Origin: Haloterrigena turkmenica DSM 5511
Lineage (GTDB): Archaea; Halobacteriota; Halobacteria; Halobacteriales; Natrialbaceae
Assembly (NCBI RefSeq): GCF_000025325.1
Contig: NC_013743.1
Coordinates: 744,001-808,000, forward strand
DNA: 64,000 nucleotides
Direction: 5' to 3'
Shown here piece by piece: positions 34,914-54,139 of the stretch. Position numbers and translations under genes: made by a program. The notes beneath the pieces are model-generated. The model saw only the letters and a program-made list of their open reading frames with translations. It ran no database searches and was not told where the DNA came from. How positions within the stretch are numbered: the stretch's first letter is position 1; each line of letters begins with the position of its first letter.

Positions 34914-36602
34914 ATGCCGACGGAATCGGACACTCATTATGACCCCTCACTGGGGAACAAGTTCATCTTCGTCACCGGCGGCGTCATGTCGGGACTCGGC
35001 AAGGGGATTACGGCCGCGAGCACCGGCCGTCTCCTCAAAAACGCCGGGTTCGACGTCACCGCGGTGAAGATCGATCCGTACCTGAACGTCGACGCGGGGA
35101 CGATGAATCCCTACCAGCACGGGGAGGTGTATGTCTTGGAGGACGGCGGCGAGGTCGACCTCGATCTGGGGAACTACGAGCGGTTCCTCGACATTGACAT
35201 GACCTCGGACCACAACATCACCACGGGGAAGACCTACCAGCACGTCATCGAGCAGGAGCGTGCGGGCGACTACCTGGGCAAGACGGTCCAGATCATCCCT
35301 CACATCACCGACGACATCAAGCGTCGCATCCGCGAGGCCGCGGAGGGCACCGACGTCTGTATCATCGAAGTCGGCGGTACCGTGGGGGACATCGAGGGGA
35401 TGCCCTACCTCGAGGCCTTACGCCAGTTCGCCCACGAGGAACCCGAGGAGAACGTCCTCTTTACCCACGTCACGCTCGTCCCGTACTCGAAGAACGGCGA
35501 GCAGAAGACCAAGCCCACCCAGCACTCGGTCAAGGAGGTTCGCTCGATCGGTCTCCAGCCCGACATCATCGTCGGCCGCTGCGAGGACCGACTCGACCCC
35601 GAGACCAAGGAGAAGATCGCGCTGTTCTGTGACATTCCCACGGAAGCGGTCTTCTCGAACCCCGACGTCGAGGACGTTTACCACGTCCCGCTGATGGTCG
35701 AAGAGGAAGGGCTCGACCAGTACGTCTTAGAGCACTTCGGGCTGGCCGACGAGGCCCTCCCCGAGGGCGAACGCGCCAACCAGTGGCGCGAGATCGTCAC
35801 GACCGAGAAGGAGGGGACGGTCGACGTCGCCCTCGTGGGGAAATACGATCTCGAGGACGCCTACATGTCGATCCACGAGTCGCTGAAACACGCCGGCTTC
35901 GAGGTCGGCGTCGACGTCGACGTTCACTGGGTCCCGGCTGATGAACTGGCCGACGGCCACGAGGGCCAACTCGAGGGAATGGACGGCGTCATCGTCCCCG
36001 GTGGCTTCGGAATGCGCGGCTCCGAGGGCAAGATCGAGGCCGTCCGCTACGCCCGCGAGAACGACGTGCCCTTCTTGGGGCTCTGTCTGGGCTTCCAGAT
36101 GGCCGTCGTCGAATACGCCCGGAACGTGCTGGGCCTCGAGGGCGCCCACTCGGCGGAGATGGTCGAGGACACGCCCCATCCCGTCATCGACATCCTGCCG
36201 GAACAGTACGAGGTCGAGGACATGGGCGGCACGATGCGACTCGGCGAGCACACGACCGTCATCGAACCCGAGACGCTCGCCTACGACCTCTACGGCGACA
36301 CCTCGTGTTCGGAGCGACATCGCCACCGCTACGAGGTCAACCCCGAGTACTTCGACGCCTTCGAGGGCGAACCGCTCGTCTTCTCCGGCACCGCGGGCAA
36401 CCGGATGGAGATCCTCGAACTCGAGACCCACCCCTACTTCGTCGGGACGCAGTTCCACCCCGAGTACACGTCCCGCCCCGGCCAGCCGAGCCCGCCGTTC
36501 CTGGGACTGGTCGAGGCCGTCCTCGAGCGGTCCGAGGCCGACGACGCTGAGACCGCAGACGCGGATGCCGACACCGACGCGGAAACGGAGGTAACCCACT
36601 GA
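34914..36602 (+). CDS. pyrG: CTP synthase
   Basis: PyrG makes CTP from UTP, ATP and glutamine. The 562-residue protein starts at the ATG at 34914: [41 protein letters not shown] (synthetase domain, ATP loop). [37 protein letters not shown] (UTP/CTP site) follows. The glutaminase domain begins near residue 300, with the nucleophile Cys in [12 protein letters not shown] (~390) and the His-Glu of the triad in [11 protein letters not shown]. An acidic low-complexity tail ends the protein. Its TGA stop overlaps the ATG of guaA(B) by one base, so the two are cotranscribed. Confidence 0.96.
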
Positions 36603-37519
36603 TGGTAGATACCGACACGTTCGTTCCAGAAGCAGTTGCAGAGATCGGCGACGAAATCGGCGACGAAAACGCCGTCATCGCGCTCTCAGGCGGGGTCGAT
36701 TCATCGGTCGCCGCCGCCCTAGCCTACGAGGCCATCGGCGACCGACTGACCCCGGTCTACGTCGATACCGGCCTGATGCGCAAGGGCGAGACCGACCAGA
36801 TCCGCGAGACCTTCGACTACATGGAGTCGCTGCGGATCGTCGACGCCAAGGATCGGTTCCTCGAGGCCCTCGCGGGCGTCACCGACCCCGAGGAGAAGCG
36901 CGAGATCATCGGCGAACAGTTCATCCGCGAGTTCGAGCGCGAGGCGAAGGACGCCGACGCGGACTACCTCGTTCAGGGGACGATCTACCCCGACCGCATC
37001 GAGAGCGAGGGCGGAATCAAGTCCCACCACAACGTCGGTGGCCTGCCGGAGGTCGTAGACTTCGAGGGGATCGTCGAACCCGTCCGCGACCTCTACAAGG
37101 ACGAGGTCCGCGAGGTCGCGCGCCACCTCGGCCTGGACGAAATCGTCGCCGAACGGATGCCGTTCCCCGGCCCCGGACTCGCCGTCCGCGTCATCGGCGA
37201 GGTCACCGAGGAGAAACTCGAGGTCGCCCGCCACGCGTGTCACGTCGTCGAGGAGGAACTCGAGGAGTACGAGCCCTGGCAAGCGCTCGCAGCCGTTATC
37301 GGCAAGGCGACGGGCGTAAAAGGAGACAACCGCGTTCACGGCTGGGTCGTCTCCGTTCGCTCGGTCGAGTCCCGCGACGGGATGACCGCCCGCGCACAGG
37401 AGATCGACTGGGATACTCTCCAGCGCATCCAGTCGCGAATCACCGGCCAGAACGACAACGTCGCCCGCGTCGTCTATGACGTGACCCACAAACCGCCAGC
37501 GACCATCGAGTACGAATGA
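36602..37519 (+). CDS. guaAB: GMP synthase, ATP-pyrophosphatase subunit (subunit B)
   Basis: This is the PP-loop subunit of the two-part archaeal GMP synthase. It adenylates XMP and transfers ammonia supplied by a separate glutaminase subunit, which is not in this window. The 305-residue protein has the PP-loop [19 protein letters not shown] (~residues 24-42), [12 protein letters not shown], the dimerisation and ligand stretches [32 protein letters not shown] and [25 protein letters not shown], and the C-terminal [21 protein letters not shown]. It begins within the pyrG stop and overlaps the next gene by four bases, forming a tight nucleotide operon. Confidence 0.95.
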
Positions 37520-37842
37520 GCATGGACGTAATCGTCGCCGGTCCCGACGAGGACGACATCGCCGCCGCGCTCGAGGCGGAGGGCGCCACCGTCGCCCGCC
37601 TCAACGGCGTCATCTCGCGGCCCGCCCTCGAGGAGGCCGGCATCGTCGACGCCGATCTGTACGTCCTGACCGACATCGGACAGGCGACGACGATTCCGAT
37701 CGTCTGCGACCTCTCCGAGGACGTTCGGACGGTCGCCTACGCCCGCGATACGATCCCGGAGTTCGTCAAGGGCCAACTCGATCTCGCCGTCGACCCGCAG
37801 CTGATGGACGCCGGGATCGTCGCCGACGAACTGACCAGCTAG
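37516..37842 (+). CDS. Rossmann-like small protein of the pyrG operon
   Basis: A 108-residue acidic protein starting four bases inside the guaA(B) gene (ATGA overlap): [106 protein letters not shown]. The VIVAGPDED and [18 protein letters not shown] pieces look like a small Rossmann or TrkA-N-like domain that binds a nucleotide. I recall it as a haloarchaeal protein linked to CTP synthetase, sometimes wrongly annotated as such. Its role is probably nucleotide sensing or assistance to GMP/CTP synthesis; that is inference from the operon. Confidence 0.8.
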
Positions 37843-37951
37843 TCGCCGACGCGTTTTCCTCTTGCTCGGACCGGCCCGGATCGTCGCCGATCGCGTCGCC
37901 TTCGGATCGACGTCCTCCCGACGTTCACGAATAACTGTACGTTGAAGCGGG

Positions 37952-37975
37952 GTGTGACGATATAAACCGTCACAC
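37952..37975. promoter_or_regulatory. Perfect dyad with TATA-like loop
   Basis: GTGTGACG and CGTCACAC are exact reverse complements, eight bases apart. The loop is ATATAAAC, which would be a TATA element if a transcript starts here. A repressor site overlapping a promoter is one reading. The arms share GTGTGAC with the hairpin at 26110-26128. Confidence 0.5.
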
Positions 37976-38135
37976 GGCCGAAATCGGCCGCGTAAACTGG
38001 GATTGAAATCGACGGAATCCGGGATAACCGTCGAATACCATCGCCCCCGTTGAAGTGGGTTCCGCGGCTATCGATAGTTGGAGGTCGACGGGCAGACCCC
38101 ACCGAGGCATCCACCGCCTGCACCCGTGACTTCCA

Positions 38136-38159
38136 CCCCACCCACAGCACCCTTCCCCC
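38136..38159 (-). other. Potential G-quadruplex motif on the minus strand
   Basis: On the minus strand there are four runs of three to five G with loops AA, TGCTGT and T. This satisfies the usual G3+ quadruplex pattern. It precedes no recognised gene. Confidence 0.5.
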
Positions 38160-38173
38160 ACCACTGCCACACC

Positions 38174-38268
38174 GTACCGATTCCCGGTACCGACGCAGGC
38201 CTTGCACCCGCCTGCGTCCCCACACCCTGCGGTTGGCACTCGAGGCGCCGGGGTGTTTCCGGCCCTCG
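38174..38268. other. Three tandem hairpins
   Basis: Arms: GTACCG/CGGTAC (38174-38190, loop five), GACGCAGGC/GCCTGCGTC (38192-38218, loop nine) and CGAGG-GCCGG/CCGGC-CCTCG with one bulge (38241-38268). All are strong GC stems packed into 95 bases. Their order suggests a folded RNA. No known archaeal RNA family (RNase P, SRP) matches by the motifs I checked. Confidence 0.55.
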
Positions 38269-38346
38269 GGATGGTTCTCAGTACTTCTGATTCAACAGTA
38301 GCTGTACGATCGCACCGACGGCTCCGAACCGATCCAGCCAACCGAC

Positions 38347-39135
38347 TTACGACGACTGTAACCGCTGGAGGACCGGAATCTCCTCGAGGCGCTCCTCCTC
38401 GAGCAGGTCCCAGTCGATTCCGGACGGCTGCGCGCGGCTTTCGGGACGGATCGTCCGCTCGGGCGTGACGACGAGATCCATCGCGACGTCGTGGTCCCCG
38501 ATCGCGACGGGGTCGTCGATGAGCTGCCGCTCGTGGATCGTCGTCGCGACCGTCGTCGACTCGTCGACGAGGCCGAGCCCGCGCAGGATCGCGTACTCGA
38601 GGTCGCTGTAGCCTTCCCCCTTGCCGATCCGACCCCCGTTTTCGGGCTCGCGGCTACCGCCGCTCACTGTTTCCGTGGATCGTGGATCCACGCTCACTGC
38701 CACGCTTCCCGAGACGATCAGATCGATCTCCTCGACCGCATCGGGGCCGACCTGCTCGCCGTGTTCCGAGGAGCCCGAAACCGTCGTCGCCGCGTCGTAG
38801 TCGGAGAGTTCGTCGGGATCGAGTTTCAGGAAGCACTTTTCGTCGGCGAGTCGCGGAACGGCCATGTAGACGGTCTTCCCCGCGCGCAACGCCGCCCGGC
38901 GGACGGGCAACTGGGGCGCGTCGGGGTTGGCCTTGATCGTCGTCGCGTCGCGCCACTCCGGCTTGTCGGCCAGTCGCTCGGCGGCGTCGTCCGCGCCCGC
39001 GAAGTTCGGGATCCGGCCGTGGGGCGGGAAGGGGAACCGCGCCTCGCCGCTCTCCTCGAGGTCGTCCCAGACGCGCTGGCGGATCGTCTCCTTGTCGACG
39101 CCGTCGGCGTCGGCAGTGGTGTCGAAACCGTCCAT
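38347..39135 (-). CDS. 5-formyltetrahydrofolate cyclo-ligase family protein
   Basis: A 262-residue protein of the 5-FCL family, which converts 5-formyl-THF to methenyl-THF. Motifs are WDDLEESGEARFPFPPHGRIPNFAGADDAAERL, KANPDAPQLPVRRAALRAGKTVYMAVPRL, and the family-typical glycine-rich loop GRIGKGEGYSDLEYAIL, which usually reads G-[R/K]-G-x-G-Y-[Y/S]-D. The C-terminal end is LVVTPERTIRPESRAQPSGIDWD. Its ATG lies one base after the MoaB-type gene stop, so they are cotranscribed. An insertion of about 20 residues (SVDPRSTETVSGG, near residue 150) is not obviously part of the core. Substrate specificity in haloarchaea is not established. Confidence 0.85.
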   Translation of the reverse strand: MDGFDTTADADGVDKETIRQRVWDDLEESGEARFPFPPHGRIPNFAGADDAAERLADKPEWRDATTIKANPDAPQLPVRRAALRAGKTVYMAVPRLADEKCFLKLDPDELSDYDAATTVSGSSEHGEQVGPDAVEEIDLIVSGSVAVSVDPRSTETVSGGSREPENGGRIGKGEGYSDLEYAILRGLGLVDESTTVATTIHERQLIDDPVAIGDHDVAMDLVVTPERTIRPESRAQPSGIDWDLLEEERLEEIPVLQRLQSS

Positions 39136-53981: not shown

Positions 53982-54139
53982 TCGATAGGTCGACGATCGG
54001 CGACACGCTCGGTATTCGATCGACAGCGTTCGAGTGCGTTCGATTTCGTTCTATCCGATGGAGAGCGCTGCCGACGGGCGACGAGAACGAACCGAATCGG
54101 CGACTCTCGACGAACTGATGGCGACGCGCCCGCGGGCGA

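Follow-up and report, generated by a model that had tools for sequence, protein, structure and literature searches.

A putative small RNA gene with helically phased upstream elements, conserved across the Natrialbaceae

RNAs of the CsrB/RsmZ type titrate a protein and carry a repeated GGA motif in the loops of their hairpins, and other bacterial sRNAs, such as the RsaE-like ones, have C-rich seeds. In haloarchaea, the sRNA132-type intergenic sRNAs of Haloferax volcanii are encoded by stand-alone small RNA genes (PMC6560208, PMC3956466). The sRNA genes of H. volcanii are mostly confined to the species, with 22 of the 27 tested by deletion having no homologue elsewhere (PMC3956466). The RNA described here for Haloterrigena turkmenica likewise appears to be the product of a stand-alone intergenic gene, but differs from the H. 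volcanii sRNAs in its family-wide occurrence, its covarying structure and its traces in other families. It represents a new family of a known kind, the archaeal intergenic small RNA, and is unusual in its depth of conservation and its promoter. No description of the RNA was found in the openly accessible main texts that were searched.

The genome of the H. turkmenica type strain 4kT (DSM 5511) has been published (PMC3035258), and our analysis covered a stretch of 64,000 nucleotides (C1:744001-808000), referred to here as the window. The RNA locus is a gap of ~505 bp between two convergent genes, reaching from the end of the DUF7126 gene at 37842 to a 5-formyltetrahydrofolate (5-FTHF) cyclo-ligase family gene at 38347, beyond which a moaB-like gene follows. 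The flanking genes are:

36602..37519, + strand: guaA, ATP-PPase/C-terminal subunit of GMP synthase (TIGR00884, 411 bits; PF00958)
37516..37842, + strand: DUF7126 protein gene, last gene of the left operon, directly after guaA (PF23443, E=5.5e-45)
38347..39135, - strand: 5-FTHF cyclo-ligase family gene, the convergent flank (PF01812, E=2.9e-21)

An initial annotation of this DNA had considered, among other options, that the gap serves the flanking units as a regulatory hub. This idea is unsupported, since the operons on either side run towards each other here and neither has a promoter in the gap. Judged from the sequence, it is highly probable (roughly 0.93) that positions 38049-38280 hold an independent gene on the plus strand for a non-coding RNA of ~190 nt (38079-38275), which lies between two metabolic operons and has seemingly gone unrecognised so far. 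The elements of this predicted gene are:

37963..38048, + strand: upstream promoter region with ungapped conserved elements (73 distinct sequences, gap-free alignment)
38049..38058, + strand: TATA-like promoter element GTTGAAGTGG, consensus GTTSAAGTRG, nearly invariant
38079..38092, + strand: 5' strand of P1, TGGAGGTCGACGGG, near-invariant in the alignment; predicted RNA start at ~38077-38079
38105..38119, + strand: P1a, a small hairpin AGGC..GCCT within P1, present in the centroid fold and seen by eye in most aligned relatives
38123..38135, + strand: 3' strand of P1, CCCGTGACTTCCA, pairing with 38079-38092 with one bulged G
38136..38175, + strand: C-rich core with one copy of CCCACC-N3-GC, near-invariant in the family and unpaired in the consensus fold
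38192..38218, + strand: P2 hairpin GACGCAGGC-loop-GCCTGCGTC, with covariation
38225..38234, + strand: linker CCCTGCGGTT, conserved in the alignment
38239..38280, + strand: P3 terminal hairpin CTCGAGGCGCCGG..CCGGCCCTCGGG (38239-38270), then GGTTCTC; predicted 3' end or terminator

A DNA search with the gap sequence matched 33 of 61 relatives, nearly all of them Natrialbaceae, and the H. turkmenica genome itself holds a single copy. The covariance model R1, built from 24 sequences, had matches in 74 of 80 Natrialbaceae genomes with E-values down to 1e-44 and gave no convincing score in any other family. In a smaller search with laxer filters, covering 31 genomes mostly of other families, R1 returned only a fragment in genome G059 and a match in genome G262; the latter (E=0.004) is distant from the DUF7126 locus and corresponds about to chance expectation over the ~250 genomes outside the family. 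An exact 25-base core occurs in 41 named genomes, all from Natrialbaceae genera or Natrialbaceae metagenome assemblies, and a core pattern had no match in viral contigs. DUF7126 lies on the left in 29 of 30 loci examined, preceded by guaA in nearly all, and the right flank of these 30 is in nearly all cases the cyclo-ligase or the moaB gene; the order guaA, DUF7126, cyclo-ligase, moaB around the RNA is unchanged in almost every locus. An apparent partial second copy of the RNA gene in Natrinema pallidum DSM 3751 (NZ_AOII01000014.1, reverse strand, 1081-1600) is joined through CTGTCTCTTATACAC, which we take to be Nextera adapter sequence, and is therefore an assembly chimera and no duplication.

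Conservation, synteny and covariation strongly support the unannotated structured RNA that had been one of the initial suggestions, and the comparison with relatives found covarying stems and a region that is clearly conserved in Natrialbaceae. Among 76 distinct sequences, all eight pairs of P2 show double-sided compensatory changes, and 97.7% of the cells are paired. For the whole structure, the same number of sequences yielded 68 double-sided compensatory cells compared to 10.1 in shuffles, a covariation score of 0.234 compared to at most 0.056 in slid registers, and 98.9% paired cells compared to 25-53% (maximum 53.4%) with the register slid. P1 is almost invariant across Natrialbaceae and therefore has little evidential weight by itself. 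P3 is a strong terminal hairpin that stands at the same place in most relatives while its sequences differ; the mean hairpin score was 25.5 versus 15.6 in shuffled controls, with a score of at least 22 reached in 72% versus 4%. In the window's copy of the gene, only a weak T-tract follows P3.

Between P1 and P2, the stretch AGCAAYCCCACCACAGCACCCTTCCCCCACCATTGCCACACCGT is almost unchanged in Natrialbaceae except for a C-run of variable length. In addition to the copy in the unpaired core, the consensus contains CCCACC-N3-GC in the P1 loop and ahead of the C-run. Each RNA has 2-3 copies, on average 2.27 compared to 0.17 in dinucleotide shuffles, for a motif that was defined post hoc from the alignment and in sequences that are related and hence not independent. 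We consider this C-rich motif somewhat more likely than not to be the functional site of the RNA.

The most conserved parts, namely P1, the C-rich core and the phased upstream elements, were absent from the features first listed for this region. Those features comprised two dyads, a minus-strand G-quadruplex pattern and three hairpins, all of which are present in the window as described. The two dyads and the first hairpin had a limited distribution:

37952-37975: dyad 1, GTGTGACG-ATATAAAC-CGTCACAC, present
37975-37990: dyad 2, CGGCCG-AAAT-CGGCCG, present
38174-38190: hairpin 1, GTACCG..CGGTAC, present, but only within the own genus and in close relatives

According to the alignment neither dyad is kept outside the genus, and the dyad with a TATA-like loop is not conserved. 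Hairpins 2 and 3, the P2 and P3 described above, show conservation together with compensatory change, while hairpin 1 is not conserved beyond the near relatives. The G-run pattern extends across 38136-38175, but only 5 of 73 relatives have the pattern of four runs.

In the region upstream of the predicted RNA, near-invariant A residues stand at 37965, 37996, 38006, 38017, 38027 and 38037, thus at offsets of -84, -53, -43, -32, -22 and -12 from the TATA-like box and about one helical turn apart. The phased elements cover ~70 bp without gaps at a spacing of 10-11 bp, and the autocorrelation of the A/T content peaks at a lag of 10-11. P1 starts at +30 from the box in most Natrialbaceae, and the distance is exactly 30 nt in the window copy. 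By sequence, the locus has the properties of an independent intergenic sRNA gene with its own promoter, since it lies in a convergent gap and has a promoter-like element with fixed spacing to P1. Similar boxes are found ~26 nt ahead of the SRP RNA start (CTTAAGT) and in the 16S upstream region (CCTTAAGTAG). The upstream elements with their ~10.5-bp phase look like part of the promoter of the RNA and are possibly the sites of an activator or of a DNA-architecture protein; they may point to a novel archaeal protein of one of these types.

A short promoter pattern matched many places in every one of 80 genomes of other families and was uninformative, and therefore a longer promoter profile was used. 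It was trained on Natrialbaceae, on the diverged Natrialbaceae genus g10 and on five genomes of family f17. The gene in the window itself scores 48.0, and the best background score at loci not otherwise linked to the RNA gene was 9.4. Two held-out matches were obtained, one in family f8 (locus L077, score 22.9), 189 nt after DUF7126 on the same strand, and one in the sixth f17 genome (G114, locus L219, score 29.0), where TGCGGTCG follows at +30. Weak secondary matches of the profile in the window were seen at 54028 (plus strand, 10.2) and 42360 (minus strand, 9.5).

The same type of promoter, together with a P1 of wholly different sequence at a fixed distance, was found at the matching locus in g10 and near it in f17 and f8, and the replacement helices of all three begin 29-33 nt past the promoter box. 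In g10 (loci L070, L071 and L073), which has the same synteny, P1 consists of GGAGACCACG/CGTGGTCTCC; the g10 RNA is strongly diverged, with extra inner hairpins and CACTCCCCCTTCCCTTTC as its C-rich stretch. The f17 helix, TGCGGTCG/CGACCGCA at +29/+30 from the box, has 7-13 pairs, and in two of six genomes a better helix exists in the same region; the evidence for it lies in its constant position and its recurrence more than in its strength. Promoter and RNA start are kept among the f17 genomes. Family f8 has a 17-pair helix in the position of P1. For g12, another diverged Natrialbaceae genus (loci L074 and L079), no helix above background came out of the automatic search, while by eye the sequences allow a P1 that has a single mismatch. 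The elements matching 37965-38037 in g10, f17 and f8 resemble a repeated (G)AAC-N-GTTCA. A similar GAAC/GTTC array is located in family f7 (locus L081, genome G058) ~200-300 nt downstream of DUF7126, where it immediately precedes a cupin-like gene; no clear RNA follows it.

Other haloarchaeal families seem to hold a strongly altered version of the RNA. Because of the held-out promoter matches in f8 and f17 and the conserved promoter and start in f17, the RNA gene is probably older than the Natrialbaceae, its body having been rewritten since. A promoter that is kept while the body behind it is replaced across families would offer an opening onto the question of how a regulatory RNA changes its sequence yet keeps its job.

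The convergent gap, the terminator-like hairpin at the end and the synteny would also fit a structured 3' UTR or termination zone of the two convergent operons, kept only for ending transcription or for protecting the guaA-DUF7126 mRNA. However, neither the near-invariant 40-nt unpaired C-rich core nor the gap-free, promoter-like stretch behind the stop codon, at its fixed spacing of 30 nt to P1, is needed for these functions. Moreover, the element lies ~1 kb from DUF7126 in the f17 genome G052, and g10 keeps the promoter although the sequence of P1 is replaced, which makes this reading improbable. Phased A/T elements and C/G-rich strands could also serve as a chromatin or regulatory scaffold at the level of DNA, with the hairpins being incidental. 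DNA architecture, which had been among the initial suggestions, agrees with the upstream A residues, which are phased at ~10.5 bp across a 70-bp stretch that aligns gap-free in 73 sequences, but not with the rest of the region. As compensatory changes preserve the pairing of P2, and P3 reappears although its sequence varies, RNA folding is the best account; hairpin 1 and the G-quadruplex pattern are not conserved, and we consider a DNA element very improbable. A riboswitch or cis-acting leader was rejected as well, since no gene on the same strand is directly downstream in the window, where the next downstream gene is convergent on the opposite strand.

A leaderless small mRNA, starting with ATG, GTG or TTG (consensus gATGGAGGTCGACGGG) 26-30 nt after the TATA-like box and encoding a short peptide (MEVDG...), is likewise quite unlikely, if slightly less so than a DNA element. 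One of the three start codons is present in 68 of 74 distinct sequences, and the spacing to the TATA-like box is typical of haloarchaeal leaderless messages. The frames, however, range from five codons to a frame that stays open until the stretch ends, and they are lost at the C-run of 0-6 (mostly 4-6) bases; the GGAGGTCGACGGG block is almost without synonymous variation, constraint at the codon level is absent, and f17, which starts with TGCGGTCG, has no comparable conserved start codon. The five overlapping ORFs matched neither Pfam nor NCBIfam and no reading frame is conserved, in line with the initial view that the region has no halophile-like coding frame; a coding role was rejected for both strands. 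We give least credence to an H/ACA or box C/D RNA that guides the modification of rRNA. Archaeal stable RNAs of this size with hairpins would agree with it, as would CCACA after the P2 hairpin in the window copy, but inspection by eye found neither RUGAUGA nor CUGA in the predicted RNA, and the longest contiguous complements to 16S and 23S rRNA are within the range of shuffled RNAs (contiguous pairing only). Rfam 15 gave no match at the gathering threshold in the window and none up to E=5 in 37840-38350. Archaeal SRP and RNase P RNAs resemble the RNA proposed here as structured stable RNAs of haloarchaea, and a comparable TATA-like box stands about as far ahead of the SRP gene, but both are encoded elsewhere in the genome, with no model match at the locus; the sole genome matches of RNase P RNA (RF00373, C1:437813-438172) and SRP RNA (RF01857, C1:1042471-1042783) are outside the window. 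The string GTTGAAG had suggested a CRISPR-repeat-like RNA, but this string turned out to be the promoter box, and where it occurs a second time, at 37940, it lacks conservation.

We therefore favour an independently transcribed, trans-acting sRNA that uses a repeated C-rich motif as the most likely explanation from the sequence data. Transcription would start from the TATA-like box (38049) and cover a span from ~38078 to ~38275/38280; the upstream sites at 37965-38037, with their helical phasing, probably set the activity of the promoter. The 5' end of the RNA would fold as P1 and the middle would be single-stranded, exposing the repeated CCCACC-N3-GC, while P2 and the terminal hairpin P3 would stabilise and end the RNA, with stability presumably provided by P1 and P3. 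The repeated motif could then act in trans, either as a sink that binds an RNA-binding protein or through base pairing to G-rich mRNA segments, and we regard protein sponge and mRNA seed as roughly equally likely. With the CsrB/RsmZ RNAs it shares a short single-stranded motif that is repeated in one structured RNA, but its motif is CCCACC-N3-GC, located in a stretch that is unpaired, and no sign of homology was found. As for the RsaE-like sRNAs, the exposed C-rich stretch would suit pairing with G-rich mRNA sites; in contrast to these, no recurring target emerged for the RNA, since a search of 12 genomes for the 19-nt complement with up to three mismatches found only the RNA gene itself above control levels. 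The lack of a recurrent 19-nt complement in mRNAs lets us lean slightly to protein binding, with short seeds only a little less likely. Haloarchaeal messages are largely leaderless, and blocking of Shine-Dalgarno sequences is therefore less likely.

Taken as a whole, the combination of RNA gene, phased promoter and trans action via the C-rich motif appears somewhat better than an even bet. A wider proposal is doubtful, namely that this is an order-wide haloarchaeal regulatory RNA whose promoter, with its helically phased sites, is more conserved than the RNA, such that promoter and a 5' stem at constant spacing persist across families while the body is rewritten, and whose motif in Natrialbaceae titrates an RNA-binding protein, as an archaeal counterpart of CsrB-like sponges. 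Published haloarchaeal sRNAs are mostly species-specific, whereas this RNA is kept almost family-wide and combines stems that covary with an unpaired motif that is near-invariant; it may well serve a core function, which deletion could test.

The concentration of structure had initially been judged to exceed that around genes elsewhere in the window, which holds only weakly. The single-sequence fold of the plus-strand RNA has a z of -3.2 (200 shuffles), and an equal or better fold compared to shuffles was seen in 7 of 319 plus-strand windows, placing the RNA about 8th of 320 in the scan of the whole window. The minus strand at the locus is ordinary, as 132 of 319 windows fold at least as well, and this plus-strand bias speaks for the RNA gene. 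Single-sequence folding is only moderately unusual; the comparative evidence is decisive. In this rough scan, windows of 200 nt that fold better than the RNA relative to shuffles lie around 16401 (minus strand), 1401 (plus strand), 50201 (both strands), 12801 (minus strand) and 41201 (plus strand), and their z values range from -3.5 to -5.1.
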